DNA of 53,618 nucleotides from Acidipila sp. (GTDB lineage Bacteria; Acidobacteriota; Terriglobia; Acidiferrales; UBA7541): NCBI GenBank assembly GCA_010365215.1, contig JAAFGT010000017.1, positions 1-53,618 on the forward strand, read 5' to 3'. Below the pieces are notes generated by a model that did not search any database, was not told where the DNA came from, and was given only the letters and a program-made list of their open reading frames with translations. Below are positions 21,160-52,211 of the stretch, in pieces (position 1 is the stretch's first letter; the number at the start of each line of letters is the position of its first letter). A program made the position numbers and the translations under genes.

Positions 21160-21185
21160 GATGTCTTTCTCCTTTCTTGACTTAG

Positions 21186-25562: not shown

Positions 25563-26909
25563 CTACGGCCGGCCAATGGACTGGTACTCGAAGCCCAGTT
25601 CCCTCATCTTCGCCGGGTCGAGCAAATTGCGGCCATCGAACACCAGCGGACGCATCATCGAATCTCGCACGCGAGCCCAGTCGAGCTTCTTGAACTCTTC
25701 CCACTCGGTGACGATCAGCAGCGCATCGGCTTTGTCGGCCACCTCGTAAGGATCCGCGTAGCGCACCTGCGGAAATGTCTCGCGGGTTCTCTCCATGGCT
25801 TCCGGGTCGTAAGCGCGCAGCGAAGCGCCTTCCGCCAGCAGCTTGCGGATCAAGTCGATGGAAGGAGCAAACCGGATGTCATCGGTATTCGCCTTGAAGG
25901 TGAGCCCCAGCAGCCCCACCTGCTTGCCCTTCAGCACCCACAGCGCGCGGCGAATCTTGGCCAGGAACTGCTCGATGCGATCCTTATTGACGTTTTCCGC
26001 CTCGCGCAATAACGAGAAGTCCACCCCGGCGCGCCGCGCCAGCGCCACGAACGCCTGCAAATCCTTCGGCAGGCAAAAGCCGCCGAAACCGATGCCGGCC
26101 TTCAGGAAAAACGGCCCGATGCGCGGATCCATTCCCATGGCCCGCGTCACCTCTTCAATGTTTCCGCCGAGTCGCTCGCAGAGGTCGGCAAGAACGTTGG
26201 CATAAGAAATTTTCAATGCCAGAAAGGAATTGCAGGCGTGCTTGATCAGCTCCGAGCTGTTGATCGTGGTCACCAGGTAGTGCGGCTTCTCCCCGGCCGG
26301 GCAGCCTTGCGGGTGCACCGGGCACTTGAACTTGCGATCGAGAATGGGCGCGTAAATTTCGCGCATCTGTTTTGCGGCGGCTTCATCTTCCACGCCCACC
26401 ACGATGCGGTCGGGATGCATGAAGTCCAGCACGGCCGTGCCTTCGCGGAGAAATTCCGGATTGGAGACCACGCGAAAATGCGCTCCGCTCTTGCGCCCGT
26501 AAACTTCGAGCGCCCGCTTCAATTGCTGGCCGGTCTGCACCGGCACCGTGCTCTTCTCCACCACCAGCTTCGGGCCATGCGCCTCCGCGGCGATGATCCG
26601 CGCCACCGAGTCGATTGCCGAGAGATCCGCCTCGCCATTTTCGAGGGGCGGCGTGCCCACGCAGATGAAGATCGCCTCGCCCTCCTGAATCGCCGACGGC
26701 AGGTCCCCGGAAAATTTAATGCGCCCATCTTTGCGGCAGGCGGCGATGACTTCTTCCAGATGAAGTTCGTAAATGGGGATGTGACCCGCTTCGAGAGCGA
26801 TGATTTTCTTGGGGTCATTATCCACGCAGGTAACGTGGTGGCCCACCGCGGCCAGGCAGCCGCCCGTCACCAGACCCACATATCCGCAACCGATTACAGT
26901 AATTTTCAA
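25563..26909 (-). CDS. ugd: UDP-glucose 6-dehydrogenase
   Basis: A 448-residue NAD-dependent enzyme that oxidises UDP-glucose twice to UDP-glucuronate. The Rossmann motif IGCGYVGLVTGGCLA opens the protein. The central dimerisation helix SFLALKISYANVLADLCE and the catalytic Cys in GFGGFCLPKDL are present, as is the C-terminal UDP-binding domain (LTFKANTDDIRFAPS). The start is TTG at 26909 with GGGA 5 nt upstream; no ATG fits. It is the last gene of the minus-strand polysaccharide locus, 122 nt after the fused oxidoreductase, and supplies UDP-GlcA for uronic acid residues and for UDP-xylose synthase. Confidence 0.95.
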   Translation of the reverse strand: MKITVIGCGYVGLVTGGCLAAVGHHVTCVDNDPKKIIALEAGHIPIYELHLEEVIAACRKDGRIKFSGDLPSAIQEGEAIFICVGTPPLENGEADLSAIDSVARIIAAEAHGPKLVVEKSTVPVQTGQQLKRALEVYGRKSGAHFRVVSNPEFLREGTAVLDFMHPDRIVVGVEDEAAAKQMREIYAPILDRKFKCPVHPQGCPAGEKPHYLVTTINSSELIKHACNSFLALKISYANVLADLCERLGGNIEEVTRAMGMDPRIGPFFLKAGIGFGGFCLPKDLQAFVALARRAGVDFSLLREAENVNKDRIEQFLAKIRRALWVLKGKQVGLLGLTFKANTDDIRFAPSIDLIRKLLAEGASLRAYDPEAMERTRETFPQVRYADPYEVADKADALLIVTEWEEFKKLDWARVRDSMMRPLVFDGRNLLDPAKMRELGFEYQSIGRP

Positions 26910-27031
26910 GGGAATCCCGTCCTCACGAAATGGAATAGGACCACTTTAGCAACCTCCCATTCTCCCGCACGTCTCCGACTGGGAAAAGAGAATTCTGCCG
27001 TTTACGTGTACGGGGAGCTACAGGGCGGGAA

Positions 27032-29167
27032 TCAGGACTGCGGGGTGAGAAAGGCAGTAAGACCAGTGGAAGCGGACTCGAGGAGTTTCAATGTGGCACG
27101 CGCGGACATAAACCATGACGACGCCGGAACCGGCGCCGTGCCGGAGGTCATTCCCGCCAGCAGGGCCGCGATCATTTCCGTCTGGCCTTTGCCCTGGAAT
27201 TTCCTCGTGGAGCGGCCCGTCGCGGAGCGTAGTTCCACGCTGGCGAAATTCTCGACAATGGCCGTGCAGCCTGCACGCGACACCTGGATGATTTCTTTAG
27301 GAAGGGATGCATGCGCGGACGTCTCGTAGGTGAGTGTTGCCGTTGTACCGCCCGGAAACTCGATGATCGCATGCAGGTTTTCATCCGGCGCGATGCCTTG
27401 CATGGCCGCAAACATTTTCACCGGTGCCGCGCCGGCCATTTCAATGCACCAATCCACAAAATGGCAGGCTTCGCCAAGAATTCGGCCACCCTGCAACGGA
27501 TCGTGCAGCCAGTGGTCTGGCGGCAGAGGACCAGCCTGCACATGGTAACGAATGCTGAGCGGCGCGCCCGCGGGGGTCGCCGCAAAAAACTCCTTCAGTG
27601 CCAAAGTGGCCGGCGCGAATCGCCGATTGTGCCCCACCATCAGCGGCAGCGGATGAGCGCGCCAGACTTCCTCCAAAGCGTCGAGCTGTGATTCTTCGAG
27701 GCACAGCGGCTTTTCAACGAACACCGCCTTTCCCGCTTGCAGCGCAGCTTGCGCCAGCGAAGCATGCGAGTCGTGCCGCGAGGCGATAAAAACCAAATCG
27801 ATTTCCGGATCATTCAAGACATCCGCGGGATTCGTGGAGCATCGCGCTATGCCAAATTGCTCGGCAACTTTTCGCGCGGAGAGGCCGCGTGTGGTGACCA
27901 CGCTGAGCAGTCTCACGTCGGCGCGCGATTTCAGCAAGGGAAGCAGCGTGCCGGCTGCATAGCTGCCCGCGCCTATAAAGCCTGCTCCGATTGTCCCGGG
28001 GCGACGCAGCTCCGGCGCTCGCAGGGAAATGCTGGCAGGCGGCTTGGCCTCCAGCACCGGATATTGCAGCACCACGCCGAGCGAGGGTTCGCCTCCGGTG
28101 ACAATGTCGTACGCGCGTGTGGCATCCTCGATCGGCAGGCGGTGGGTGATGAGCGGCGTCACGCTGATCTGCTTGCGCGCCAGCAGATCGAGAAAAGCTT
28201 CGAGGTTGCGCGCCAGGGTCCAGGGCACGTAGGCGCGCGGATAATCCATACCCTGCTCTTCATATGCCGGGTCGTAGCGCCCCGGGCCGTACGACCTTGC
28301 GTAAATCACGCTCAATTCTTTGAGGTAGGCTTCGGTACGCGGAATATCAGTGCGCACATCGCCCACCACAATGATGCGCGCGCGATCGGCGGCGGCCTTC
28401 ACGGCAAGTTCCACAGGAGCTGAACTCTTAGCAGCCGCAGCAATAAAAACGCGGTGAAATCCGTGTGTAAGATTCCACGCGCCCAGAGCATCTTCAAGCG
28501 CGTCCCCCTGCGCCGCAGCCGTGCGCTCGATGCCGAGCCGGCCAGCGAGAGCCAGGCGGTCTGAGCGGGGATCAAACCCGGCCACACGACAGCCTGCGGC
28601 GCGCAGAACTTGTGCCAACAGAAGCCCCACAAGTCCCATGCCGATCACAGCCACTTCGTCGCCGAGTTGTACTTCGCCCAGGCGCATGGCGTGAATCGCG
28701 ACTCCGCCGAGCGCAGCAAACGCGGCCTCTTCGAAACTGACCTCATCCGGAATCGTGGCGATAAGATTGCGCGGTACAAAATTAATTTCCGCGTGCGTGG
28801 CGGCGTCGGTGCCCGCGCAGGCCACGCGAGCTCCCGGCCGCTGTGCGGAGTCGCGCGATTCCAGAACAATGCCCGCGCAGCTATAACCCATGGCGCGCGT
28901 GACATCGAGGCGCTGCTGGACTTTCCGCACCGTCGGCCACACGCCTTCGCGGCGCACGCTATCGAGGACTTTGCGCACCTGGTCGGGCCGTCGCAGCGCT
29001 TTACCGAGCAATGTCGAGCGTCCCAGCTCCGCCGCAGCGCGCTCCGTGCCCGGGCTGAGTACCGAGCAGACCGTGGCGACTAGTACGCCGGGCGCACGCA
29101 GCCCAGGCGGAGGCACGTCTTCAATCTCAATCGTGCCGCTGCGCAGATTTTGCACCACTTGCTTCAC
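27032..29167 (-). CDS. Fused zinc-type dehydrogenase / Gfo-Idh-MocA oxidoreductase
   Basis: A 711-residue two-domain protein. Residues about 1-355 are a medium-chain dehydrogenase (quinone reductase/alcohol dehydrogenase superfamily) with VLSPGTERA and a GMGLVGLLLAQVL nucleotide motif. The multi-Cys structural zinc lobe of classical alcohol dehydrogenases is not visible. Residues about 380-711 are a Gfo/Idh/MocA domain with GFIGAGSYAAGTLLP and the catalytic EKPL motif. Both halves would use NAD(P). The GTG start at 29167 overlaps the heparinase stop by GTGA, so the two are translationally coupled. Such fusions recur next to heparinase-type genes in exopolysaccharide loci; the sugar substrate is unknown, and oxidation or epimerisation of a uronate or keto-sugar is plausible. 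Confidence 0.88.
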   Translation of the reverse strand: MKQVVQNLRSGTIEIEDVPPPGLRAPGVLVATVCSVLSPGTERAAAELGRSTLLGKALRRPDQVRKVLDSVRREGVWPTVRKVQQRLDVTRAMGYSCAGIVLESRDSAQRPGARVACAGTDAATHAEINFVPRNLIATIPDEVSFEEAAFAALGGVAIHAMRLGEVQLGDEVAVIGMGLVGLLLAQVLRAAGCRVAGFDPRSDRLALAGRLGIERTAAAQGDALEDALGAWNLTHGFHRVFIAAAAKSSAPVELAVKAAADRARIIVVGDVRTDIPRTEAYLKELSVIYARSYGPGRYDPAYEEQGMDYPRAYVPWTLARNLEAFLDLLARKQISVTPLITHRLPIEDATRAYDIVTGGEPSLGVVLQYPVLEAKPPASISLRAPELRRPGTIGAGFIGAGSYAAGTLLPLLKSRADVRLLSVVTTRGLSARKVAEQFGIARCSTNPADVLNDPEIDLVFIASRHDSHASLAQAALQAGKAVFVEKPLCLEESQLDALEEVWRAHPLPLMVGHNRRFAPATLALKEFFAATPAGAPLSIRYHVQAGPLPPDHWLHDPLQGGRILGEACHFVDWCIEMAGAAPVKMFAAMQGIAPDENLHAIIEFPGGTTATLTYETSAHASLPKEIIQVSRAGCTAIVENFASVELRSATGRSTRKFQGKGQTEMIAALLAGMTSGTAPVPASSWFMSARATLKLLESASTGLTAFLTPQS

Positions 29168-31269
29168 GCCGATGCCTCCCGCGGCGAGTGATTCTCGCCG
29201 AGAATACTGAATTCGAAAACAGACTTAACGCTTCCACTGGCCGTACCGGAAAAACTTAGAATCTTAGCGTGGATTTTTTGTCCGAAGCGCGGCGCCACCC
29301 AGCCCTCATCTACCCGTGCAACCAGCTTTCCGGGATCAATTGAAGACCAAATCCGCAGCCTGACAGGGCCAAGTCGCCAGGCCGAATTCCATTCTAGCGT
29401 AGCGCCAGCCTGCTCATTCAAATACGGTTTCGTCGGCGCGCCTGCCGCAGGCTCATCGGCTAACTCCGGTGTGATGCCCGGCGCCAGATGAAACAGCCAT
29501 TCGAGCGGAGCTGCGGCGCGCAGTGTCACTTTGTCGAGCAGCGTCAACACTTCCCGTTTCGCGTCAAACCGCAGTTCGCGCGCGACAAGGGCCTGCGCGG
29601 CGAGGCGCTCATATCCGAAATGCTCACCGGAAAATTCGACACCATCAAGAGTCGCCTCCCAACGCAACAGACGCGAGCGCGTGTCGTCCACGATTCGGAA
29701 GAGCAAAGCCGGCCAGAAGCGATTCTGCTCCGCTCCAGCTACCACGACACCATTGTGATAGCGAGTGGAGCGAAAAAGATTTCGCGCCTGAGGATCTCCG
29801 GAATAGCTCGGAAGTCCCGGATCCACCACTACCGGGCGCCCATCGCAGCAAAACTCCACGCTCAACTGATCGCAATGCGCGTGATTCGACCATCCGTTGG
29901 CTCCCAGCGGCCCACACCGGATACTGCCTCGCAACCGCGGCGACGAGAAGAAAAAAAATCCCGCCTGAGGAAAGGCGATGTAATCCGCAGTTGCGTTGTT
30001 CGAGGTGGCGGATGGCGGAATGAAACCCAGGCGCCAGAAAACATCCGCGGTTCGTTCAGGGCCGGGCGGAGGAGAAGCATAGCCATAAAGTGCAGCGCCG
30101 ACGCGGGCCATTGGAATTACGGCGCCGTCTCTGCCGTCTTCGAACGGAAGGAAGCGGCCATCATCTGCGTCGCCCCAAACGGGAGGGCTTTTCCGTCCCG
30201 CGCAGAGAGTGGCAACAAATCCAAACATGCGTGCAAGAGATTCCGCATACGGAGCGCCACAAGCCTTTTCAATAGCTGCACGAGTTTCCGCGGCATCGCC
30301 AGGCCGGCTGCCGTCAATTCTGGCCAGCAACAGCCCGCAGGTTAGAAATATCTCTGCGATGAAACAGTGATAACCCGAGGAGCCTTCGCGGGCCACTCCG
30401 TCCTCGCCGACAAGGTTGTTCATCTCAGCCAGGAGTTCCTGGCGCGCCAGATCGAACCAAGCGCGTCCTTCGGGCGTCTCCTGGAAGAGAATTCCTAGAT
30501 GCAAGAGGCCCGCTACGCACGACAAGTAATGATTTGCGCGCGCGACAGGATTCCATTCGCTATGAACAGCCAGATGCCGGCCGTGCAGGAAAAGAGTTTC
30601 CAGAAACTCGTTTTCGAACTGCGTATCAAAGCCGCCGTAACTTCGGAAAAATCCCGCCGCCGTGATCCAGTTAACCGAGCGAATCGCAACCTCCATGGGC
30701 ATCGCCCAGTGCGCGCCCCGCGGATAGGGATTGTTGCGAATCCAGTGGCGAACCTGGTCCTGAAATGTACTGGCATAAATGTTCTCACCAGTGGCCGCAA
30801 ATGCCTGACCCAACGCGAGCGCATGATGAAAACGCCCCAGCTCCCAGGGGCGCTTGATGTCGGTGCCTGCAGGCGCCCCGGCCTGAGAATCGAGCACGCT
30901 CAGTCCGGCAGCGCGTTCGAGCGGCCAGCGGTAGCCGGTCTGCCAGTCGCGATGCCAGTCGATTTCGGAACCCATGGCAATGCGTTCTCCGAATATTTCG
31001 AACTCATTGCGGCAGGCGCGGTCAGCGATCGCGATGATTCTTTCCGCATACGGCAGTTGGCGGAGGCGATCCAGCGCGTCGATGACCGGAGGTAGAAATA
31101 GCGCAAAATTTCTTCCCGCAAATCCATTTAAAAATTCGGGGAGATTCTGGTGGAGCGAATCCTTCCAGCGCAAGCGGCCACGCCGCCAAGCTTCCCCCGC
31201 AGCAAAGCGAAGCGTGTCGAGCGGTTGCCTGCGGGCCTGTGCTAACAGGTAGGAAAGCATTTCACTCAT
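29164..31269 (-). CDS. Heparinase II/III-family protein (alginate-lyase-like), no signal peptide
   Basis: A 701-residue protein. The first half is an all-helical (alpha/alpha toroid-like) Hepar_II_III_N domain (about 60-330). The second is a beta-sandwich heparinase II/III domain (about 370-650) with SNHAHCDQLSVEF (about 440), which carries the family's conserved His and Asp, then VVDPGLPSYSGD and RYHNGVV. Known relatives are polysaccharide lyases that cleave next to uronic acids. The N-terminus MSEMLSYLLAQARRQ has no export signal, so the protein looks cytoplasmic, which is odd for a lyase. ATG 31269 is preferred over TTG 31278. It lies in a coupled pair with the fused oxidoreductase. Confidence 0.87.
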   Translation of the reverse strand: MSEMLSYLLAQARRQPLDTLRFAAGEAWRRGRLRWKDSLHQNLPEFLNGFAGRNFALFLPPVIDALDRLRQLPYAERIIAIADRACRNEFEIFGERIAMGSEIDWHRDWQTGYRWPLERAAGLSVLDSQAGAPAGTDIKRPWELGRFHHALALGQAFAATGENIYASTFQDQVRHWIRNNPYPRGAHWAMPMEVAIRSVNWITAAGFFRSYGGFDTQFENEFLETLFLHGRHLAVHSEWNPVARANHYLSCVAGLLHLGILFQETPEGRAWFDLARQELLAEMNNLVGEDGVAREGSSGYHCFIAEIFLTCGLLLARIDGSRPGDAAETRAAIEKACGAPYAESLARMFGFVATLCAGRKSPPVWGDADDGRFLPFEDGRDGAVIPMARVGAALYGYASPPPGPERTADVFWRLGFIPPSATSNNATADYIAFPQAGFFFFSSPRLRGSIRCGPLGANGWSNHAHCDQLSVEFCCDGRPVVVDPGLPSYSGDPQARNLFRSTRYHNGVVVAGAEQNRFWPALLFRIVDDTRSRLLRWEATLDGVEFSGEHFGYERLAAQALVARELRFDAKREVLTLLDKVTLRAAAPLEWLFHLAPGITPELADEPAAGAPTKPYLNEQAGATLEWNSAWRLGPVRLRIWSSIDPGKLVARVDEGWVAPRFGQKIHAKILSFSGTASGSVKSVFEFSILGENHSPREASA

Positions 31270-31347
31270 GGAGATCAAACTTCAAATGGCGCTGGTTAAG
31301 CGTGACCGGGATAATTTGCCAGCAGATCGAGTGAATCGCGGCGCGCG

Positions 31348-32865
31348 CTAGCCGGCGGCCGCCTTGCGAACGGAAGGCACTACACCCGCCTCATCATCCA
31401 GCGGCAAGGTCTCGTGGTCCGCGAAATCGGTCATGCGGTTGCAGAAGGAACCGCGGAGCAGGTCCATCAGAGCGCTCAGCCGGAATAACATGGTGCTGCG
31501 CTCGAGCGATCGATAAAGAACCAGAGTGCCGCGCCCGATTCCACGATGGACCAGGGGGATTTCCATCATCCACTGCGACGACAAGGTATTTCCGCCCTCC
31601 TGCTGCGCCGCATTCCCCCAGTTGAAATGAAGACTACGACTGCCGTGGAATTCGCAGCGGGCGCCGCCGAAATCCAGTTGTTCGAGTAGATCCGTGACAG
31701 AGCACCACAGCTCATCGGCGGTAGCGGTGGCGCCGATCAGCGCCCCCGCTTTGCGGATGGAAATCTGATTGCGCAGCACCTGAGGCTGATTGCGCAGCGC
31801 CTGCCGGATATGCGAATCGAGCTCTGCAAATTCAGGGTACTGCATCCGGCTAACCACCAGCCAGGCCAGCGTGCCGCAGAGCAGCGCGATCACCGGTGAA
31901 AACGCGCCCGTGTAATTAAACACCAGCAGCGACGAGAGAGCGAACAGGGCGGCCAGACCGTAGAGGACCAGCACAGCGGAACGCTGCGTGCCGCCGATTT
32001 TCAGCAAGCGGTGATGCAGGTGTTCCTCATCACGACGGAAGAGCGGATGTCCGGAGAGAAGCCGCCGCAATGTGGTTACCGAAACCTCGAGCAAGGGCAG
32101 GCCGAAGATCAACAGGGGCACGGCCATGGTGATCAACACAGGCCCCTTCTGCGAGCTGGCGACCGACAGCGCCGCCAAGCACAGCCCCAGCGTCAGACTT
32201 CCCGAATCGCCAAGGTAGATGCGGGCGGGGTGAAAATTGTGCGGTAGAAAACCCAACAGCGCGCCCGCAAGGCATATGGCGGAAACTGCGGTAAACGAAT
32301 TTCCCACCAGGGCGGCGAGCAGGAAGAGAGCCAAGCAGGCGAACAGGCCAACGCCGGCGGCCAGACCGTCCAGGCCGTCAATCAAGTTGAAGGCGTTGGA
32401 GATCGCCACCAGCCAAAGCAAGGTCACAGGAACAGAAAGCCAGCCCAGCACAATCGGCGTGTGCGTGAATGGATTCGAGAGAATCTCCACGCGGAAGTCG
32501 GCCATGTACAGCCAGCCTCCGGCCAGCAACTGGACCAAAAGCTTTTCCCAGGGCCGCGCACCGCGCAGATCATCGTAGAGGCCCAGCAGAAAAACTCCGG
32601 TCGCCGCTCCCAAAAGCGCGAGTCCCCGCAGGCTTTCCTGCGTGACCCGCGAAGTCACCTGATTGTGTCGCAGGAATAGAATGCCCAGCGTCAACAGGAA
32701 GGCTATAAACACGGCCACCCCACCAAGGCGAGGTGTTCCATCGGCGTCCGGTTCATCGCCGTGGCGGCCGGCCCAGCCGCGCTCGGCCGCCAGGCGAGCC
32801 AGGGACAGCGTTAAGAAGTAAGAAAATCCAGCAGAAAAGAGCAGCAGGACAAGGTAAGTTCGCAT
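31348..32865 (-). CDS. WecA/MraY-family undecaprenyl-phosphate sugar-1-phosphate transferase
   Basis: A 505-residue polytopic enzyme that starts glycan assembly by moving a sugar-1-phosphate (commonly GlcNAc-1-P) onto undecaprenyl phosphate. Family motifs are present: TPRLGGVAVF (about 43-52), the DDLRGA Asp pair (about 97), NAFNLIDGLDGLAAG (about 156) and the cytosolic loop EEHLHHRLLK (about 283). The first ten or so helices cover residues 1-340. An extra soluble C-terminal extension of about 155 residues, without a recognised domain, follows. The ATG overlaps no upstream frame but its first base is shared with the TAA of the preceding GT4 gene (TAATG), and a 78-nt gap precedes the heparinase gene. 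Confidence 0.9.
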   Translation of the reverse strand: MRTYLVLLLFSAGFSYFLTLSLARLAAERGWAGRHGDEPDADGTPRLGGVAVFIAFLLTLGILFLRHNQVTSRVTQESLRGLALLGAATGVFLLGLYDDLRGARPWEKLLVQLLAGGWLYMADFRVEILSNPFTHTPIVLGWLSVPVTLLWLVAISNAFNLIDGLDGLAAGVGLFACLALFLLAALVGNSFTAVSAICLAGALLGFLPHNFHPARIYLGDSGSLTLGLCLAALSVASSQKGPVLITMAVPLLIFGLPLLEVSVTTLRRLLSGHPLFRRDEEHLHHRLLKIGGTQRSAVLVLYGLAALFALSSLLVFNYTGAFSPVIALLCGTLAWLVVSRMQYPEFAELDSHIRQALRNQPQVLRNQISIRKAGALIGATATADELWCSVTDLLEQLDFGGARCEFHGSRSLHFNWGNAAQQEGGNTLSSQWMMEIPLVHRGIGRGTLVLYRSLERSTMLFRLSALMDLLRGSFCNRMTDFADHETLPLDDEAGVVPSVRKAAAG

Positions 32866-34142
32866 TAAGACTCCGGTACGCTATTGATCTGCTTGCGAGA
32901 CTCCACGGTATTTAGACGGGTACGCGACAACACCAGGCGCTGCAGTATTTCGGAATACTCCAAGGCGAGCCGTTCACGAAGGAATTCGTGGGAAACAAAT
33001 TCGCGTCCATTCTGCCCCAGCGCGCGGCTGCGCGCCGCGTCGCGCTGCAGTTCGCGAATAGCAGCTACAAGCTGCGAAACGTTTTCCGGCTCTATGGCGA
33101 TTCCTGCGCGCGCACGGTCCAGCAAGCGCTTCGCCTCGCCATCGACGCCGAGCAGCAAAGGCCGTCCTACGGCCATGATTTCCAGCATCTTCGAAGGAAC
33201 TACGGTGCGAAACACTTCGTTCTTCCTCAGCAAGACAGCGCACACGTCGGATTCGGCGATCCAGCGCGGTACTTCGCCGCGTGGGCGTTCACCGATAAAA
33301 TCGACGTTGTCCAGGCGATTCTGGCGGGCGTAAGACTCGAGGGCGCCCCGCCTCGCTCCTTCGCCTACGATGCGGAAACACACGGAGGAGTCGCCACGAA
33401 ACTCGGCCGCAGCATCGAGCAGTGTTTCCAGGCGATGGGCCATCCCGAGTGTCCCGATGTAGGTAACGATAAAAGGACCGGAGCCTTTAGGGGGAGCGCC
33501 GCCCGCATCGAAAAATTCACGATCCACACCGTTGGGGATCACGCTGACGCGATCGCCCGGCAGCCCCCCATTTACAATGGCCTCGCGTTGCGCGCCTGTC
33601 ACGGTGACGATGTGTGCAGCACGGGAATAAAGCCCGTGTGCCAAAGCTTCGAGGCCGCGAACCAGGGGCGAAGCTTTCTGGGACGCTCCTACCGCCACCA
33701 GCGATTCCGGCCATAGATCGCGTACTTCCATCACCAGTGGGGCGTTGAAGCGGCGCGCGAGCACGGCGCCCGCTACGGCGCAAAGCAGTTGTGGTGAAGT
33801 GGCCACGATCACGTCCGGGCACGGCAGGCGAAGCGAACCCACCACGGAAGCAGACAGGAGAAACGACCCGTAATTCAGCGAGCGCCGGATTTTCCCGCGA
33901 TTCGCGGCAGGATAAATCCACGTGCGGTGCACGGTGACCCCGTGAAAATTCTCGCGCAGAAAACCACGACGAAACGCTTGCCGGTATTCGGCAGGAATGC
34001 GTCCGGTGGGATGGTGTGGAAAGCCCGTCAAAACATGGACGTCATGACCCGCAGCGGCCCAAAGACGCGAAAGGCCCGCCACTCGCCCGGCTGGGGCGCC
34101 CATCTCCGGCGGGAAGTAGTGGGTCACGTAGAGAATCCTCAC
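32865..34142 (-). CDS. GT4 glycosyltransferase, WbuB-like
   Basis: A 425-residue GT-B glycosyltransferase. It begins VRILYVTHYFPPEMGAPAGR, the WbuB-type opening with a Gly-rich phosphate-contact loop. The C-terminal half has YIGTLGMAHRLETLLDAA and VPSKMLEIMAVGRPLL, the donor-binding segment of this group. The start is GTG 34142, which overlaps the asparagine synthase stop by GTGA and has GGAGG 7 nt upstream. The open frame extends to 34337 but that part runs inside the synthase gene and is rejected. By analogy with WbuB it may add an early sugar (N-acetylfucosamine-like) to the lipid-linked acceptor, but the sugar cannot be inferred. Confidence 0.88.
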   Translation of the reverse strand: MRILYVTHYFPPEMGAPAGRVAGLSRLWAAAGHDVHVLTGFPHHPTGRIPAEYRQAFRRGFLRENFHGVTVHRTWIYPAANRGKIRRSLNYGSFLLSASVVGSLRLPCPDVIVATSPQLLCAVAGAVLARRFNAPLVMEVRDLWPESLVAVGASQKASPLVRGLEALAHGLYSRAAHIVTVTGAQREAIVNGGLPGDRVSVIPNGVDREFFDAGGAPPKGSGPFIVTYIGTLGMAHRLETLLDAAAEFRGDSSVCFRIVGEGARRGALESYARQNRLDNVDFIGERPRGEVPRWIAESDVCAVLLRKNEVFRTVVPSKMLEIMAVGRPLLLGVDGEAKRLLDRARAGIAIEPENVSQLVAAIRELQRDAARSRALGQNGREFVSHEFLRERLALEYSEILQRLVLSRTRLNTVESRKQINSVPES

Positions 34143-36106
34143 GCTCCCACCTCCGCTTTTCCGGCGAAGCGTGCGCGAGCGTCGTTTGCATTCGGAGCGC
34201 CGCCTGCGGGCTCGCCATCCAAATATTGCCGGCACCATTCCTCGAGCACGAGCAAGGCCCACAAGTGCAGCGAGTAATCGCGCCTGCCGGTCTGGAACTC
34301 GCGCACGATGCGCTCGACCGCCGCGGGTTGGAACCATCCGCGACGCTCCACTGATTCACGCGAAAGGTAGTGAGCCACCAGCGGAGCCAACTCGCGCCGC
34401 AGCCAGATTCCCAGCGGTGGATTCAGCCCCAGCTTGGGGCGTTCCAGAATTTCCGCGGGCAGCAGCGGCCGCATGGCTTCGCGCAACACATACTTTCCCG
34501 TGCGTCCGTGCAATTTTTGCCCTACCGGCAAGCGCAGGGCGAATTCCACCAGGCGATGATCCGTGTAGGGGAGACGAACCTCGAGCGCGTGCGCCATGCT
34601 CATGCGGTCGCCGTAACGGAGCAGGTTGTGCGGCAAGAAGGAGTGCAGATCGACGTAACTCGCCTGATCGAGCGGGTGGCAATCGGCGACGCGGGAAAAC
34701 AGCCCGTCAAGAAATTGCTCACCGGCATGGCCGCCCATAGCGGCTCGAAATTCCGGCGTGTAAAGTTCACCGCGCATACTCGGCGAAAAGTAGCTGACCC
34801 ATCCGGTATAGGCGCGCTGCCAGCTTTCGCCGCTCGCCGATAAGAATTCACGCAGACGCCGCCGCGCGTGAAAGCCACTGGCGCCTTCGGGAATGCCTTC
34901 GGCGAGCATAGCCAGTGCGCGCCGAAGCGGCCCTGGTACAGCATCCAGAAACCGTCGCAGACGCACACCCAAATGGCGCGGATAACCGAGGAACAGCTCG
35001 TCTCCCGCATCGCCGGCCAGGGCTACGGTCACGTGGTTGCGCGTGAGCTCGGCCAGAGAATAGATCAGGAGCGCTGTAGGATTGCCGAATGGCTCATCGA
35101 ACAGCGACACCATGCGCGGCAGCAGCTCGGCGCATTGCGGACGAATTTCCAGTTCGCGGTGCTCGGTATGGCAGTGCTCCGCAACTTTTCGCGCATACTC
35201 CAGCTCCGTGTAATGCTCTTCGCCAGCGCCAAATCCCAGGCTGAATGAACGCACCGGCTCTGCGCCGGCCTTCGACATCAGCGCCACGATGCTGCTGGAA
35301 TCGAGGCCGCCGCTTAAAAACGCTCCCAGCGGAACGTCACTGATGAGCCGCAGCCGCACCGATTCGCCCAGGAGTGGGCGCAGCTCTTCTTGATATGCAT
35401 CAGCGCTTCGCGCGCCGTTTTTTTCTTCGGAACCTTTCTCTGCGCGCGGCCGCGCGTCCCAATAGCAACCCGTAAACACAGCTCCCTCCTGCCATCGCAA
35501 CCAGTGCGCCGGAGGAAGCTCCTGGATTCCCGCAAAAATTGTCTGTGGCGGAGGAATGTAAAGGTACGTGAGATAGTCGTCGACTGCGGCAGCGTTCAGG
35601 CTGCGATTCACGTCGGGATGCTGAAGGAGAGCCTTCATCTCGGATGCAAAAAGCAGGCGCTGGCCGGCGCGCGCGTAATAGAGCGGCTTCACGCCAAGAC
35701 GGTCGCGAACCAGAATCAGGGAACGCTCGTGATGGTCCCAGACGGCGAAGGCAAACATGCCGCGCAGGCGTTCGAGCGCTGCCGTTCCCCAGCGCGCCCA
35801 AGCCTCCACCAACACTTCCGTGTCGGAGCGCGTGCGCAAAACGCAGCCGGCGCTCTCGAGCTCCTTTTGGATTTCACGGAAGTTGTAAATCTCACCGTTA
35901 AAAATAACCGTGCAACGGCCATCGGCGCTGGTCATCGGCTGGGCGCCGCCGGTTAAATCGATAACCGCCAAGCGGCGATGTCCAAAGCTCACCTCAGGCG
36001 TTGAAAGAAGGCCCTGGCCGTCCGGGCCCCGGTGAGCGAGGCTCAGCGTCATGCGCTCCAGAAGAGCGCGGTCGATTCCGGGAACAGCTCCTGCGATTCC
36101 GCACAT
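34139..36106 (-). CDS. Asparagine synthase (glutamine-hydrolysing) homologue 1
   Basis: A 655-residue two-domain amidotransferase. The N-terminal class II glutaminase has the catalytic Cys2 in MCGIAG, RLAVIDLTGGAQPM and NGEIYNF. The synthetase domain has the ATP-pyrophosphatase loop SGGLDSSS (about 266). It is about 100 residues longer than E. coli AsnB, as in homologues in surface-polysaccharide loci. Both active sites look intact, so it should move ammonia from glutamine to an adenylated carboxylate. In this locus the acceptor may be a uronic acid sugar rather than aspartate (inference; compare WbpS in Pseudomonas O-antigen loci). The ATG has no ribosome site but eight A residues before it, behind a hairpin. 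Confidence 0.92.
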   Translation of the reverse strand: MCGIAGAVPGIDRALLERMTLSLAHRGPDGQGLLSTPEVSFGHRRLAVIDLTGGAQPMTSADGRCTVIFNGEIYNFREIQKELESAGCVLRTRSDTEVLVEAWARWGTAALERLRGMFAFAVWDHHERSLILVRDRLGVKPLYYARAGQRLLFASEMKALLQHPDVNRSLNAAAVDDYLTYLYIPPPQTIFAGIQELPPAHWLRWQEGAVFTGCYWDARPRAEKGSEEKNGARSADAYQEELRPLLGESVRLRLISDVPLGAFLSGGLDSSSIVALMSKAGAEPVRSFSLGFGAGEEHYTELEYARKVAEHCHTEHRELEIRPQCAELLPRMVSLFDEPFGNPTALLIYSLAELTRNHVTVALAGDAGDELFLGYPRHLGVRLRRFLDAVPGPLRRALAMLAEGIPEGASGFHARRRLREFLSASGESWQRAYTGWVSYFSPSMRGELYTPEFRAAMGGHAGEQFLDGLFSRVADCHPLDQASYVDLHSFLPHNLLRYGDRMSMAHALEVRLPYTDHRLVEFALRLPVGQKLHGRTGKYVLREAMRPLLPAEILERPKLGLNPPLGIWLRRELAPLVAHYLSRESVERRGWFQPAAVERIVREFQTGRRDYSLHLWALLVLEEWCRQYLDGEPAGGAPNANDARARFAGKAEVGA

Positions 36107-36118
36107 TTTTTTTTGTGA

Positions 36119-36140
36119 GCCGGCAACTACTGTCGCCGGT
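36119..36140 (-). other. Short hairpin in the leader of the first asparagine synthase gene
   Basis: Arms CCGGC (36120-36124) and GCCGG (36135-36139) with a possible G-T closing pair flank a 10-nt loop, 13 nt before the asnB-like ATG. An A-tract, not a T-tract, follows on the transcribed strand, so it is not a terminator for this operon. Confidence 0.4.
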
Positions 36141-36178
36141 AGAAACGAAGCCAGGCTTGAGGCAGAGGTGCCATTACC

Positions 36179-37402
36179 CTAGGAGATCTGCGGAACAGCT
36201 TTACGGCCGGTTCTGCGGGCCGGCCCGCGCGCGGCGCGGCTTGCGGCCATTTCCCGCAAGAGGCCGAGTAGACGGTCGACGTGGTCTTCCCACAGAAACT
36301 GTTCTACACGGTGTGATCCACGCGCCGCGAGCTCTTGCCGGAGAGCGGGATTGCGGATCAGTGCGCCGAGCTGCGCGGCCAAAGCTTGGGCATCGAGCAC
36401 CGGAAAATATGAGCCGGCATTGCCGCAGATTTCTCGGTGCACGGCAATGTCGGAGGCGACGACCGGGAGTCCCGCGGCCATGGCCTCCACCAGCGGATGA
36501 CCAAACGATTCACAGAGTGATGGAAAGACGAAGATGTCCACCTGTTCGTAAGCGCGCCACGTGGCGTCATAGTCCAGCACGCCGATCGTTCGTACTGTGC
36601 CGTCGAGGCGCCGCAGCAAGTCGAGCTCCTCCTGGGGCATACGCGTGTGCTGCCCGTCCTGCCGCCAGGGATCGAGCGTAAGCTGCAGTTCGAAGGAAAC
36701 ATTTTGCTGCTTCAGAATTTCCGCCGCGCGGAGCAGCGTGGCGAGATTCTTGTGATCGGCGTAATGCGATACCCAGAGGATTCTGGCCGGCCGAGGGACA
36801 GTCTGCTCGCCCCGCGCGCTTTTGAGGCGGGCGATTTGCTGCGCCAGACGCGCTCGCGGCACACCGTAGGAATTAACACGCGCGTGGCTTTCATCGAGCT
36901 TTACAAACTGCCGCAGATCTTCGAGCATGGCCGCCGACGGAGTCACGACGCAATCGGCGGCGCCCACCGAGCGGCACACCAGCCAGCGGCGCAGCGCAGT
37001 TTCCGCGCGAAAAGAGGCAGACTTGCCGGGAAGTACCTGCTGGAGATACTCGCGCGAAAAATAGATAGGAATACGCACCAGCAGCACCTGCGGACAGGGA
37101 CACGCCAGCAAAGCGAAATTAGCGGAAGAGAAAAGCACATCCGGCTGCTCGCGCTCGAGCATTCGGCGCAGCCCCACCTGATCCCACCACAGACGCCGGG
37201 CATACGACCCGCCCGCTGCGCCGTCCGCGACCACGCGAAGCCGGGAATCCGTTGCCGGAATTTCCCGCGCTCTTTCTGGCGGCACTACAAAAACGAACTC
37301 CTCGCCCGGCCGCGCCTGCTCCAGCAGCGAGCCTGCCAGATTGCGGATATACGTGGCCGCGCCGCCCAGCTTTGCGGAGACTGCATTAACCAGAATTTTC
37401 AT
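36179..37402 (-). CDS. GT4 glycosyltransferase
   Basis: A 407-residue GT-B enzyme starting MKILVNAVSAKLGGAATYI, where the GGAATYIRNL loop binds the phosphate. The C-terminal domain has WVSHYADHKNLATLL and the E-x7-E donor motif in LCESFGHPLVEAMAAGLPVV. The ATG at 37402 overlaps the stop of the second asparagine synthase by ATGA, so the longer open frame to 37513 is rejected. A basic Arg/Ala-rich tail ends the protein. It lies between the two asparagine synthase homologues. Sugar and linkage unknown. Confidence 0.9.
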   Translation of the reverse strand: MKILVNAVSAKLGGAATYIRNLAGSLLEQARPGEEFVFVVPPERAREIPATDSRLRVVADGAAGGSYARRLWWDQVGLRRMLEREQPDVLFSSANFALLACPCPQVLLVRIPIYFSREYLQQVLPGKSASFRAETALRRWLVCRSVGAADCVVTPSAAMLEDLRQFVKLDESHARVNSYGVPRARLAQQIARLKSARGEQTVPRPARILWVSHYADHKNLATLLRAAEILKQQNVSFELQLTLDPWRQDGQHTRMPQEELDLLRRLDGTVRTIGVLDYDATWRAYEQVDIFVFPSLCESFGHPLVEAMAAGLPVVASDIAVHREICGNAGSYFPVLDAQALAAQLGALIRNPALRQELAARGSHRVEQFLWEDHVDRLLGLLREMAASRAARGPARRTGRKAVPQIS

Positions 37403-39291
37403 GCCGTCAGATGCTGCTCGCACCAGTTCTGTAAAACCACGAACACCCAGACACGCGACCAGTGCACCCGTCCGGCCAGAAACTCTTGCCAAAGTTTTTG
37501 CACGTACTCCCACCGCAATACCGGCTTGAGCGCTGCGCAGGGCTCCGCCAGCACTTCTTCAATCACCGGACGCAACTGTCCCTGCATCCACTGCGACCAG
37601 GGAAATTCGAAGCCGCGTTTTGGTTGGGCCAGAATTTCCGGCGGCAAGGGACGCCCAGCGGCATTCACCAGCAAAGGCTTGCGTTTCCGGCCGCTCACTT
37701 TCCACGCTCCCGGCATGCGGAGCGCGATTTGCGTAACCACATCGTCGACCAGCGGCACACGCACTTCGAGAGAGTGCACCATGCTCATGCAATCGGCGTC
37801 GCGCAGAAGTGTATTTCCGAGGTACACCAGCAGCTCGAGACATGAGACCCGGTTGATGGTGTCCTGGCTGCAGAGCAGGCGTTGCTGCCGGGCGAATTCC
37901 GCGGCATAGTCTTGAAAGCGAACCTGCATCAGCCAATCCGGCTGCAACAGATTCGCTACCTGCGCCGGCGCGAGCAAAAGCCGCGAGAGATAGAAAGGAT
38001 GCGGAAAGCCGTCTTGCTCCTGTAACCAGCCAGCCAGTCGCCGGCTCCTGCTGGAGGAAAGCAGTGGCGAGTCGAGCATGCTTCCAGCCAGATGACGGCC
38101 CCAGGCGGGAATCCAGCGTTCGGCGCGCTCCATGCGCGGCACCCAGGTGAAGCTACTGTATCCCGCAAAAAGTTCGTCGCCACCCAGGCCGGAAAGAGCA
38201 ACGGTTACTCCGCCCTGCTTGGTAGCGCGCGACACGAAATAAGTATTAATGCCGTCCACCGTGGGCTGATCCATGGCGGCAAGGGCGCCCGGCAGTGCGC
38301 TTAGCAAGTCGTCTTCGGAAACGGTTAGTTCGTGATGTTCGGTGCCCAGGAGTTTTGCCACGCGTTGCGCCATGGCCCCTTCGGCAAACTGCTGTTCGGC
38401 AAACGTCACCGAGAACGTCTTGACGGCTCCGCCATGCTGCGCTGCCAGGCTCGCCACCACCGTCGAGTCTATTCCTCCGCTCAAAAAAATGCCCAGAGGG
38501 ACGTCGCTTTCCAGGCGCAAACGGACAGCATCCGAGAGGGCCTGATGCATTTCCTCGACGCGATCCTCTTTCGTACGGCCACTTCCATTGAGCAACTCCG
38601 GCGCCGCTGGCAGTTCCCAATAGCGTTTGATGTGGTAGGAGCCCTGTTTCCATCGCAACAGGCAACCGGCCGGAAGCAGCCGGATGCTGCGCACCATGGT
38701 CAGTGGCTCTTGCACAGCTCCGAACTTTAAAAATGAATCGAGGCCCGTGGCGTCCAGCTCGCGCGGCACGAGCTCGCTTGCGAGCAGAGAGCGCAATTCG
38801 GACGCGAACATGAACCTGCCCGGCGCTTCATGGTAATAGAGAGGCTTGACACCCATCGGGTCTCGCGCCAGCAGCAGCCTCTGACGCGACTCATCCCAAA
38901 CGGCGAATGCGAACATCCCGCGCAGTCGCGCGAGCACTTCTTCGCCCCAGACGCGGTAGCCGGTAAGCAGCACTTCCGTGTCGCAATGGGAACGGAAGTC
39001 ACAGCCAAGATCCTGTAGTTCGCGGCGCAGTTCACGGAAATTGAAAATTTCGCCGTTGTAGGCCAGCCAATTTCCAGTGTCAGGATCCATCATCGGCTGA
39101 TGGCCTGCGGGAGAAAGATCGAGAATGGCCAGCCGGCGGGAACCCATCAGCAGGCGTCCTCCCGAGGTTGGAGAGATGGCCACGCGACCTTCGTCATCCG
39201 GGCCGCGCGGCTTCATCTGCAGGAGCATGGCGCCGAGCCGAGCCTCATCCTGCTGCGCGTCCTCTTCGAACCATCCGGCAATTCCACACAT
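37399..39291 (-). CDS. Asparagine synthase (glutamine-hydrolysing) homologue 2
   Basis: A 630-residue full-length AsnB-like protein, clearly diverged from homologue 1 rather than a recent copy. Cys2 is in MCGIAGW, the glutaminase domain has YNGEIFNFRELR, and the synthetase domain has SGGIDSTVVAS (about 274) and GLGGDELFAGY (about 375). All key motifs are retained. Two such enzymes in one glycan operon suggest two different acceptors or two amidation steps; neither is likely to be the housekeeping asparagine synthase (inference). It starts 2 nt after the stop of the preceding GT4 gene and is coupled by ATGA to the next. Confidence 0.92.
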   Translation of the reverse strand: MCGIAGWFEEDAQQDEARLGAMLLQMKPRGPDDEGRVAISPTSGGRLLMGSRRLAILDLSPAGHQPMMDPDTGNWLAYNGEIFNFRELRRELQDLGCDFRSHCDTEVLLTGYRVWGEEVLARLRGMFAFAVWDESRQRLLLARDPMGVKPLYYHEAPGRFMFASELRSLLASELVPRELDATGLDSFLKFGAVQEPLTMVRSIRLLPAGCLLRWKQGSYHIKRYWELPAAPELLNGSGRTKEDRVEEMHQALSDAVRLRLESDVPLGIFLSGGIDSTVVASLAAQHGGAVKTFSVTFAEQQFAEGAMAQRVAKLLGTEHHELTVSEDDLLSALPGALAAMDQPTVDGINTYFVSRATKQGGVTVALSGLGGDELFAGYSSFTWVPRMERAERWIPAWGRHLAGSMLDSPLLSSSRSRRLAGWLQEQDGFPHPFYLSRLLLAPAQVANLLQPDWLMQVRFQDYAAEFARQQRLLCSQDTINRVSCLELLVYLGNTLLRDADCMSMVHSLEVRVPLVDDVVTQIALRMPGAWKVSGRKRKPLLVNAAGRPLPPEILAQPKRGFEFPWSQWMQGQLRPVIEEVLAEPCAALKPVLRWEYVQKLWQEFLAGRVHWSRVWVFVVLQNWCEQHLTA

Positions 39292-41852: not shown

Positions 41853-42623
41853 TCAGGCGCTTTTGCAACAAACTGCCACCAGCGCGTTGGCCTGATCAAT
41901 CTGGGAACGTTTGAATAACCAGGAGTCGGCAACCGCCTGATCGCCCACCGGTACGCCGAAGGACCGTTGTACGCGCTTGCGTTTGCTGTTCGATAAAAGG
42001 CGTAAGCGCAGATTAAATATATCGAGAGAACGCAACAATGAGTACATCCTGTTTCCACGGCGGCGCTGGCCGTAGAGGTCTACCGCGCTGAAATGCCGGG
42101 CGAGTATTCTCTGCAAGCTACGTTTGTCGTGATTGTTTACGTGAAATGGGTTCTCCATGCCGATAGAACTCATGTGAATGTCGGTGGTGATGGTGTTTGG
42201 CGTAGACAGAATGAGGCGTCCGCCGGGCTTCAACACGCGGACACATTCGCGCAGAAAACCATCCGGATCTTCCATGTGCTCAAAAACCTCAAAAGATATG
42301 ACCAGGTCGAATGCCTCGGAGTCGCAGGCCAGGTTCTGGCAGTCCATCACCGCATAGTAAATTCCGGCGCCTTCATAACGCCGCTTGGCATAATTCATGG
42401 CTAGGTGGGAATAATCCACGCCGAGTACAGAACGCGCCTTTGCGCGCAAGACATGCGATCCATAACCCGTGCCGCATCCGGCATCGAGAACTCGCTCGCC
42501 CCCTCTCATTTGACCGAGAGCGAAGCGGTAGCGCGCCAAGTGATGTTGGTAGGTAGCTTGATCCGGGCTGTCCGGACGCGGCCGCTCGTCGTCCAGTGTC
42601 TGACTTTTAGGTTTCGCTTGCAC
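41853..42623 (-). CDS. Class I SAM-dependent methyltransferase
   Basis: A 256-residue Methyltransf_11/25-type enzyme. The SAM-binding motif I reads VLDAGCGTGYGS, with motif II VLGVDYS and FEVFEHMEDPDGFLRECVRVLKPGG as motifs III-IV. The start is GTG 42623 with GAGG 4-5 nt upstream, giving a 17-nt overlap with the end of the preceding GT4 gene. The longer frame to 42734 lies inside that gene and is rejected. Within a glycan operon it probably O-methylates a sugar or a nonreducing end, but a small-molecule substrate cannot be excluded. Confidence 0.85.
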   Translation of the reverse strand: MQAKPKSQTLDDERPRPDSPDQATYQHHLARYRFALGQMRGGERVLDAGCGTGYGSHVLRAKARSVLGVDYSHLAMNYAKRRYEGAGIYYAVMDCQNLACDSEAFDLVISFEVFEHMEDPDGFLRECVRVLKPGGRLILSTPNTITTDIHMSSIGMENPFHVNNHDKRSLQRILARHFSAVDLYGQRRRGNRMYSLLRSLDIFNLRLRLLSNSKRKRVQRSFGVPVGDQAVADSWLFKRSQIDQANALVAVCCKSA

Positions 42624-43848
42624 GATGCCTCTGCGTGACGCGCAGCGGAGTGCGCGCGTAATTGGAAGATATCCTTTGCAGTTCTTTGCAAAGCAAGGCG
42701 GCGGCGCGCTCCGGATCGTACTCGCGCACCGCATGAAGTCTCGCTGCCGCCCCTATTTCCGTGCGCCAGTCGCAGCGGTTCAGCAACTCTTCCATAGCGT
42801 GTGCTAGCGCTTTAGAATCCCCGGGGGCAACCAGCAGTCCGTCTTGACGATCGGTGATCATCTCCAAGGGTCCGCCGGCCGCTGCAGCAATCACCGCTCG
42901 GCCCACTGCCATGCCTTCAGCAACCACGAGTCCCCAGGGCTCAGGTTCGATGGAAGCGTGCACTATCAAGTCGCAGGCGTTCATCATTTCCTGAGGGTTG
43001 GCGCGATTTCCCACAAACAGGACGCGGCCCCGCAAAGACGGGCGCTCCGCAAACTGTTTTAATTCTTCGGCGTATTCGGGTTCGATGCCGAACATCGAAC
43101 TGCCCGCAATCAGGAAGCGCGCCTTTGCATCGCCCGAGGAAAGGATCTCCGCCGCCTGTAGAAAGATGTGCTGCCCCTTCCATCTTTGCAGACGGCCAAA
43201 TATTCCTACCAGACGCTCGCCTGAACCGATTCCGAGCTCGCTCCTGATTTGTGCGCCGCTCTGCGGGTTAGGACAAAATTTACCGAGATCGACTCCCGGG
43301 CGTGCCACCTGAATCCTTGCGTTAGGAGAGAAATCCTGCCTCAGCACGGCCGCCGTATATTCAGAGTTCGCAAGGAAGGCATCCGCGCCAATGAGGCGTA
43401 GTACTCGATCGATCAGCCCGCCCGACGAAACCGCAGCGGGCACATAGCCGTGCACCCACCAGACGCAAGGCTTGTCTGCCCAGCGCGCCGCAGCGCGGGC
43501 AAAGAGCAGAGGATGGCCCGAATTCGTCATCACCAGGTCGATGTTTTCTTTGCGAATGAGCTTTTTCGTCGCAACAACAGCCCGTGCAGCCCGCAACAAA
43601 TGCCGGAAGCGTCCGGCAGGGATATGATGCGTGGGAATTCCGAGCGCCTCAACTTGGGATTGAATTTCTGACCGCTGTGGAGAGAAGGAAACGTAGGTGG
43701 GAGTTATTACGTTGCGGTCCAAGTGTTGCAGCATCGTGAGCAACGCGAATCCTGCTCCGCCCAACTCGGACTGGCTGTCGGCGAACAGGACCCGTAGCGG
43801 AGGCTGCGGCCGGTCGCTCGTATGGCCCGAATGGATTGGCCGATTCAT
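42607..43848 (-). CDS. GT4 glycosyltransferase
   Basis: A 413-residue GT-B glycosyltransferase. It opens MNRPIHSGHTSDRPQPP before the fold starts at LRVLFADSQSELGGAG. The C-terminal half has VGIFGRLQRWKGQHIFLQA and the E-x7-E motif in EPEPWGLVVAEGMAVGRAV. The ATG at 43848 overlaps the stop of the O-antigen ligase gene by ATGA; the open frame continuing to 44550 is antisense-free but lies within the ligase gene in another frame and is rejected. Confidence 0.88.
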   Translation of the reverse strand: MNRPIHSGHTSDRPQPPLRVLFADSQSELGGAGFALLTMLQHLDRNVITPTYVSFSPQRSEIQSQVEALGIPTHHIPAGRFRHLLRAARAVVATKKLIRKENIDLVMTNSGHPLLFARAAARWADKPCVWWVHGYVPAAVSSGGLIDRVLRLIGADAFLANSEYTAAVLRQDFSPNARIQVARPGVDLGKFCPNPQSGAQIRSELGIGSGERLVGIFGRLQRWKGQHIFLQAAEILSSGDAKARFLIAGSSMFGIEPEYAEELKQFAERPSLRGRVLFVGNRANPQEMMNACDLIVHASIEPEPWGLVVAEGMAVGRAVIAAAAGGPLEMITDRQDGLLVAPGDSKALAHAMEELLNRCDWRTEIGAAARLHAVREYDPERAAALLCKELQRISSNYARTPLRVTQRHRASET

Positions 43849-46713: not shown

Positions 46714-46726
46714 AGTAACGCCAGAC

Positions 46727-51069: not shown

Positions 51070-51101
51070 GGGAATTGGGTTTTGCCGGTATGTCCGTTGG
51101 C

Positions 51102-52205: not shown

Positions 52206-52211
52206 GTTGGT

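Follow-up and report, generated by a model that had tools for sequence, protein, structure and literature searches.

The window analysed here is a whole stretch of 53,618 nucleotides (nt), positions 1–53618 of contig C56 in the genome (4.1 Mb, 91 contigs) of an uncultured acidobacterium. It carries a surface-polysaccharide operon in which a sugar dehydrogenase gene (Ugd), two genes for AsnB-family amidotransferases (ASN1 and ASN2) and a gene for a heparinase-family protein (HEP) stand among glycosyltransferase (GT) genes. Our comparison across genomes revealed that the association of HEP with AsnB is recurrent and goes beyond chance: 47 of 62 HEP loci have an AsnB-family gene nearby, whereas among 40 control loci 2 do (Fisher p 2.6e-13). 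This linkage suggests that AsnB and HEP are partners in the building of a glycan. The original prediction had proposed a uronamide-bearing glycan with its own lyase-like enzyme. The genes on which it relied are all present and intact in the interval it named, as judged by their open reading frames (ORFs) and domain matches, although it left out two further genes there, one for a fused oxidoreductase (BIDOM) and the other for a WecA-like transferase. The uronamide reading is plausible and unproven; of the amidotransferases, it is ASN1 for which family and motif support it. The explanation that we consider best overall, to which we give slightly less than an even chance, is a variant of WbpS/WbqG-type uronamide biosynthesis with HEP acting before export.

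HEP relatives occur in 70 of the 297 genomes of the phylum and in 12 of the 41 closer relatives. Two of the 62 loci come from the genome itself, 14 from the closer relatives (out of 15 places there, with fragments joined and a 56-bit fragment excluded), and 46 are the best-scoring of the further places in the phylum; each was read for up to 10 kb on either side. The controls are places of PF02397 initiating transferases, taken one per genome in score order, with places less than 8 kb from a contig start skipped; one of them (L141) shares its locus region with a HEP about 20 kb away. Two HEP loci (L079 and L090) come from overlapping stretches of a single contig, and without L079 the count of AsnB near HEP is 47/61. 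The 64 HEP rows hold 62 distinct proteins, and HEP itself was scored in 61/62 loci because an overlap filter hid that of L085. The controls are anchored on a gene other than HEP, and related genomes are not independent of one another, so that the safer figure is the count by family, in which AsnB is near HEP in 16 of 22 acidobacterial HEP families against 2 of 28 control families. Outside the window's own family, the pair was found in 37/51 loci, and every listed pair has HEP and its nearest AsnB on the same strand.

The company of HEP extends to BIDOM (19/62 loci against 1/40 controls) and the WecA-like gene (12/62 against 0/40). The order Ugd-BIDOM-HEP-WecA-GT-ASN1-GT-ASN2 is found again, completely or partially, in four genomes of the window's family (L064–L067), and elsewhere the layouts vary (HEP-ASN, BIDOM-HEP-WecA-GT-ASN, ASN-BIDOM-HEP, ASN-HEP-dehydrogenase). 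On named plasmids, 12 of 17 HEP places were read, with AsnB at 4, BIDOM at 3 and a nucleotide-sugar dehydrogenase at 11 (one cut by the stretch end). All three Streptomyces plasmid loci have a sugar dehydrogenase followed at a distance by AsnB-BIDOM-HEP, and Deinococcus aetherius has AsnB-HEP-dehydrogenase-GT4; at the Candidatus Manganitrophus place, AsnB, BIDOM and dehydrogenase are all absent from the stretch read. A tblastn search with ASN1 matched 245 plasmid records. In the open-licence literature searched, heparinase and asparagine synthase together in a polysaccharide context were not found, nor was heparinase with PEP-CTERM and exopolysaccharide (EPS); a strong HEP–AsnB partnership was not met there, and uronamide synthesis by WbpS/WbqG is already known. 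Genes labelled "asparagine synthase" or "alginate lyase / heparinase family" in a polysaccharide locus are easily taken for housekeeping or degradative ones. Streptomyces sp. KN37 and Deinococcus aetherius, which carry such sets, are named places to look for uronamides and for lyase-fold tailoring enzymes.

The uronamide part of the explanation depends on the resemblance of ASN1 to WbqG. According to passages of PMC7468200, WbqG is needed for the uronamide of E. coli O121 and, like WbpS, belongs to TIGR03108, and a P. gingivalis wbpS mutant (PGN_1234 being WbpS there) is unable to make the uronamide. The discussion in PMC6025236 has HexNAcA replacing HexNAcAN in an H. pullorum wbpS mutant, and PMC3684757 describes an altered growth mode and colony form in Rubrivivax after mutation of a WbpS homologue. 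We took as WbqG the asnB-labelled gene in the O-antigen cluster of E. coli O121 RM8352 (L192:18095-19987), on the basis of its position and the statement in PMC7468200, and it was this sequence, not WbpS itself, that served for the comparison with WbpS-like enzymes. The WbqG motif SGDAGDELFGGY aligns with AGDAGDELFLGY of ASN1, and GDAGDELF is common to both. GDAGDE is otherwise restricted to the ASN1 clade (5/76 rows), ASN2 having SGLGGDE instead; the standing of GDAGDE as an activity-defining motif is drawn from one enzyme. ASN1 and WbqG share 34.7% identity (344 bits), while WbqG matches ASN2 with 277 bits and E. coli AsnB matches ASN1 and ASN2 with 144 and 166. The scores on TIGR03108 and TIGR01536 are 528/460 for WbqG, 604/464 for ASN1, 419/444 for ASN2 and 245/510 for E. 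coli AsnB. The motif that it shares with WbqG makes ASN1 look like a uronamide enzyme, a view whose support comes from family and motif.

A phylogeny against WbpS-like enzymes had been proposed as a check, and we ran it with WbqG. WbqG, ASN1, ASN2 and other EPS clades fall into one 26-row group (SH-aLRT 93 by a quick method, with the fork drawn open), but WbqG and E. coli AsnB are both long branches; 73 of 77 rows were kept, two long rows (own_C56_88167 and L176_asnB) being among those dropped. An earlier AsnB tree kept 74 of 76 rows after the removal of those shorter than 500 residues.

At the level of the locus, the operon resembles those of WbqG (E. coli O121) and WbpS (P. aeruginosa O6, Helicobacter pullorum, P. 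gingivalis PGN_1234) in having an AsnB-family amidotransferase and a sugar dehydrogenase in a surface-glycan setting. The known enzymes, as far as the published passages go, amidate N-acetylated uronates from WbpO/TviB- or Wbp-type pathways, whereas the dehydrogenase in the window is Ugd; the window also adds a second amidotransferase, the heparinase-fold protein and BIDOM. As a separate observation on the E. coli genome used here (NZ_CP028110, strain RM8352), the 2.70–4.36 Mb region is, at the points read, inverted relative to the gene order of K-12, with mrcA, pnp and galF at 2.71, 2.90 and 4.32 Mb.

Ugd has nucleotide-sugar dehydrogenase domains and its best match is to UDP-glucose enzymes. 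It scores 426 bits on the nucleotide-sugar dehydrogenase subfamily model TIGR03026 (cut-off 190) and 441 bits, under the cut-off of 700, on the TuaD equivalog model; its closest solved relative is the UDP-glucose dehydrogenase 4a7p (384 bits), and it is the best of four matches in the genome above the PF03721 cut-off. BIDOM was found at 27 places (E up to 1e-60), the window copy and 26 others, which together belong to 26 of 119 genomes. Ten of these 27 places lie within 10 kb of a HEP match, a proximity judged by eye against a single-sequence HEP search that may miss some HEPs. The 17 places without a HEP match within 10 kb in that search lead us to reject BIDOM as an obligate partner of HEP. 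In the literature searched, the name "bi-domain-containing oxidoreductase" came up in a single paper, a Streptomyces transcriptome study.

We propose the following scheme, in which we infer the substrates, the formation of the amide, the cell compartment and the order of the steps. The WecA-like enzyme would start the chain on undecaprenyl phosphate, and the GTs would lengthen it, building in UDP-GlcA supplied by Ugd. ASN1, as a WbqG/WbpS-like enzyme, would use ATP and the nitrogen of glutamine to convert the carboxylate of a uronate into an amide, giving a uronamide at the nucleotide-sugar or the lipid-linked stage, and ASN2 would amidate a second, different carboxylate. HEP would act in the cytoplasm while the chain is nascent or lipid-linked, on one of its uronates or uronamides, where the enzyme's Tyr/His pair of the heparinase III type may take the C5 proton, with the result that the chain is cut (trimming) or C5 is epimerised. 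BIDOM would oxidise or reduce a sugar of the same repeat. The finished chain would leave through the Wzm/Wzt ABC transporter that is predicted to export the product of the operon; because the exporter genes belong to the operon, the chains can be modified before export.

The heparinase-family assignment of HEP holds, with two Pfam domains above their cut-offs and all three catalytic residues of heparinase III kept. A profile of 32 HEPs placed the heparinase III entries 5jmd, 4mmi and 4fnv first among Protein Data Bank (PDB) sequences (239, 218 and 173 bits). In PMC12088678 (Table 4), the catalytic residues of heparinase III are Tyr294 and His424, with Asn240 as the neutraliser. By alignment, with the chain numbering shifted by 24, Asn240, Tyr294 and His424 correspond to N249, Y303 and H466 of the window HEP, counted from TTG. 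The Tyr and the His are invariant over the 64 HEP rows, whereas the neutraliser column has Asn in 39 and Thr in 23 of the 62 distinct proteins. HEP and heparinase III (PL12) are thus alike in their two-domain fold family, by profile, and in the Asn/Tyr/His set; they differ in that a single-sequence comparison gives 28–38 bits, that the HEP gene stands in a biosynthetic operon, and that in HEP a signal peptide, a membrane segment or a hydrophobic N-terminus was not seen by a simple hydropathy scan, no dedicated program having been run. On the curated HepC models (cut-offs 700 and 600), HEP reaches 46 and 29 bits. An AlphaFold model built from three sequences was discarded (mean pLDDT 41.6). The nearest HEP relatives in named genomes are two, in metagenome genomes called Candidatus Acidiferrales. 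With its catalytic residues kept and a signal peptide not seen, HEP should be catalytic and is probably cytoplasmic, and a role in tailoring or editing during biosynthesis suits it better than a degradative one. We thus narrow the "own lyase-like enzyme" of the original prediction to a heparinase-fold enzyme of biosynthesis, for which service as the glycan's own lyase is one of three possible activities.

One of the other two is C5-epimerisation. Dermatan sulfate epimerase, a eukaryotic enzyme of the Golgi, offers the precedent of a heparinase-fold enzyme in glycan making rather than degradation. In passages of the epimerase review PMC3717172, it is modelled on heparinase II, and a His takes the C5 proton. 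HEP might accordingly resemble this enzyme and convert GlcA to IdoA (or a ManA-type to a GulA-type residue) in the nascent chain, with AsnB amidating one epimer. The biosynthetic neighbourhood and the failure to see a signal peptide fit such a role, and an intracellular lyase would cut its own product. Against it, the HEP profile matches heparinase III first, dermatan sulfate epimerase is not named among the 37 PDB sequences matched by that profile (E up to 1), and the Asn/Tyr/His set of the lyases is kept. We hold an epimerase to be rather unlikely, though it is the alternative that survives best.

The third activity is that of an editor. AlgL serves as a clean-up lyase in alginate synthesis, and by analogy HEP could destroy chains with unamidated uronates so that only amidated chains exit. 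This would explain the recurrence of AsnB with HEP, and the window HEP keeps the Asn that neutralises the carboxylate. Yet Thr replaces this Asn in 23 of the 62 HEPs, the second HEP copy of the genome (on contig C7) among them, and 22 of these 23 have AsnB nearby, whereas detection of free carboxylates would require the reverse; we regard editing as unlikely. BIDOM is near none of the 23 in the stretches read. In the Asn class, which includes the window HEP, AsnB is near 25/39 and BIDOM near 19/39 by locus (26/41 and 21/41 by row, where two proteins are counted twice). As an amidated carboxylate is already neutral, loss of the neutraliser Asn is to be expected on such a substrate, and the change to Thr where AsnB is nearly constant may fit an already amidated one; it may be a single inherited change, and is a lead rather than statistics. 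That a widespread partnership of amidotransferase and heparinase-fold protein exists in which HEP acts on uronamides is, in our estimate, quite unlikely. If true, it would be new chemistry in glycan assembly, that of a uronamide lyase or a uronamide C5-epimerase.

The C7 copy belongs to a second exopolysaccharide locus (C7:145000-190000), which holds a nucleotide-sugar dehydrogenase, a sugar transferase, Wzz, a second AsnB and two carbamoyltransferases, and in which the Thr-class HEP directly adjoins an AsnB. The sole exosortase match of the genome (C7:152591-153349), the genome in which this search was made, lies about 15 kb from this HEP. EPS loci of the XrtA/PEP-CTERM type (TIGR03108), such as Rubrivivax psc1 with three wbpS-labelled genes (PMC3684757), likewise have several AsnB-like genes among GTs, and the C7 locus, with a HEP and two AsnBs, is the case within this genome. 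The window operon differs from them: the one exosortase match of the genome is at C7 and not at this operon, which has a WecA-type enzyme and ABC-exporter genes.

The linkage could also reflect shared ancestry of common exopolysaccharide loci in which HEP and AsnB have no joint function. The Thr class has a single layout, and the AsnB clades track families, as such descent would predict. Gene layouts differ between loci, however, and ASN1/ASN2, the HEP-adjacent AsnBs and those of Streptomyces and Deinococcus stand at different places in the tree, where the plasmid rows are long branches. This leaves shared ancestry with a small probability.

The amidotransferases themselves were examined for the features of asparagine synthetases. 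As predicted, they are intact and distinct: each has complete glutaminase and synthetase domains, they share 36% identity, and they fall into separate clades, that of ASN2 having four rows, each of which comes from the family of the window. Both begin with MCG, and their motifs (MCGIA and FLSGGLDSS in ASN1, MCGIA and FLSGGIDST in ASN2) are common to the whole AsnB family. In human ASNS, E364A and E364Q are inactive, according to a passage in PMC6748925, and PMC11615228 gives Arg-403 a modelled contact to the aspartyl part and describes it as conserved in known asparagine synthetases. In our alignment, the Glu-364 column has Asp in ASN1 and Leu in ASN2, and the Arg-403 column has Tyr in ASN1 and Asp in ASN2. 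Over 76 AsnB-family rows, the former holds E 41, D 25, L 4, Q 4 and M 2 and is anchored by the GxGxDE motif, while the latter holds K 40, R 20, Y 7, D 4, V 3, Q 1 and T 1 and depends on the alignment. The Asp of ASN1 is a conservative replacement, outside the variants tested in PMC6748925; on Glu-348 of asparagine synthetase, a literature search turned up no paper. All 76 rows retain the essential Lys (human 466). On the AsnB equivalog model PRK09431 (cut-off 499), ASN1 and ASN2 score 272 and 275 bits, short of the cut-off, and E. coli AsnB 1050; their closest solved relative is the hydroxyamidotransferase 7ylz (242 and 209 bits, against 140 and 135 for E. coli AsnB). These results support the view that both lack the substrate pocket of an asparagine synthetase. 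The genome holds six long AsnB-family matches; one of the four besides ASN1 and ASN2, at C7:171884, keeps the Glu and a Lys in the pocket columns and may be the enzyme that supplies free asparagine. That ASN1, ASN2 or both are ordinary asparagine synthetases or amidators of amino acids in an incidental GT neighbourhood, as their passing of TIGR01536 and the presence of AsnRS with no AsnA match in the genome could imply, is improbable in view of the replaced pocket residues, the four other AsnB-family genes, the presence of GatA, which makes a tRNA-dependent route possible, and a linkage to HEP far above control.

Several observations weigh against WbpS/WbqG-type uronamide biosynthesis in the window. 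The uronamide, and GlcA as the amidated residue, are predictions from sequence. ASN2 is not WbqG-like by motif or by model ranking, since it scores higher on the asparagine-synthase model. Both enzymes pass TIGR01536 (cut-off 267), which does not discriminate because WbqG passes it too, and the TIGR03108 cut-off of 817 is reached by none of the three. The ranking of TIGR03108 above TIGR01536, which ASN1 shares with WbqG, is weak evidence because 6 of 10 other AsnB-family proteins scored, Glu-keeping HEP neighbours included, show it as well. WbqG also matches two AsnBs of contig C7 with 371 and 345 bits, as good as the value for ASN1. The HEP-adjacent AsnBs fall mostly in clades with Glu retained at position 364, so that the recurrent pair is not always WbqG-like, and the AsnB tree rejects their assignment to the ASN1/ASN2 lineage. 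AsnB is missing near HEP in 15/62 loci and at 8/12 plasmid places. A sugar dehydrogenase is near HEP in 13/62 loci against 4/40 controls (p 0.18), not significant in the phylum, and was rejected as a member of the conserved core in the stretches read. One results passage of PMC6025236 prints HexNAcAN for the wbpS mutant, unlike the discussion of the same paper. Finally, a run of N near 53.7 kb of the contig, just past the window end, breaks wzt: its Wzt_C part (53093 onward) reads in one frame and its ATPase part (53359-54363), across the run, in another; the gene cannot be judged for this reason, and the run is probably an assembly gap. The claim that a uronamide glycan with its own lyase explains all the genes therefore stands in part. 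The motif shared by ASN1 and WbqG, the pocket residues, the linkage by family and the gene sets of Streptomyces plasmids and Deinococcus argue for it, whereas the motif and model ranking of ASN2 and the counts for the dehydrogenase do not.

The genes are listed in the table; all those named are minus-strand ORFs. From Ugd, the minus-strand order is BIDOM, HEP, the WecA-like gene, GT4, ASN1, GT4, ASN2, GT4 and GT4, followed by methyltransferases, further GTs and membrane proteins. Between positions 25563 and 53108, overlaps of 4 nt join several neighbours, and the widest gap measures 148 nt. Beyond position 53618, Wzt, Wzm, NusG-like, Wzy_C, Wzz/kinase-like and Poly_export genes continue to contig position ~62120. 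Given these overlaps, the short gaps and the ABC-exporter genes beyond the window, the 25563–39291 interval is the 3' end of a single minus-strand operon of about 36.6 kb. This gene content and order, like the intact catalytic residues and the recurrent HEP–AsnB linkage, is read directly from the sequence.

Table. Genes of the surface-polysaccharide operon within the window
Gene or product	Position	Strand	Assignment and remarks
Ugd (Ugd/TuaD-like UDP-glucose 6-dehydrogenase; UDP-Glc to UDP-GlcA)	25563..26909	-	Last gene of the operon; TIGR03026, PDB 4a7p
BIDOM (zinc-type dehydrogenase + Gfo/Idh/MocA oxidoreductase fusion)	27032..29167	-	PF00107 and PF01408 above cut-off; 4-nt overlap with HEP
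HEP (heparinase II/III, PL12-like)	29164..31269	-	PF16889 and PF07940 above cut-offs
WecA/MraY-type undecaprenyl-phosphate sugar-phosphate transferase	31348..32865	-	PF00953, 143 bits; 9 hydrophobic stretches
Glycosyltransferase family 4, WcaI-like	32865..34142	-	PF00534/PF13579; start trimmed from 34337
ASN1 (AsnB-family amidotransferase, WbqG-like; 655 aa; motif AGDAGDELFLGY)	34139..36106	-	TIGR03108 604 > TIGR01536 464
Glycosyltransferase family 4	36179..37513	-	PF00534; N-terminal-domain Pfam match from residue 50
ASN2 (second AsnB-family amidotransferase, distinct clade; 630 aa; motif SGLGGDELFAGY)	37399..39291	-	PF00733/PF13537
Two glycosyltransferase family 4 genes	39294-40499 and 40496-41755	-	PF00534
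Upstream part of the operon: methyltransferases, further GTs, membrane proteins, SDR epimerase	41853..53108	-	Family matches

Three starts probably differ from those of the ORF list. For HEP, the TTG at 31278 is probably wrong and the ATG at 31269 right. In the GT4 ORF 32865-34337, the match to PRK10307 begins at residue 68, and the true start is probably near 34142; that of the GT4 gene at 36179-37513 is probably downstream of the listed GTG.

One of the other AsnB-family proteins of the genome is without the catalytic Cys and is nearest to lasso cyclases. Such a Cys-less protein (343 bits on a lasso cyclase model, cut-off 525) is encoded outside the window at C56 ~85278-89297 together with NTP_transf_5 and Transglut_core3, in what looks like a lasso-peptide locus. 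Within the window, a protein with a PEP-CTERM tail is encoded at 20224-21219, 4–5 kb from the operon end, the exosortase being on another contig, and positions 11327-12553 encode a CofH/MqnC-type radical SAM protein.

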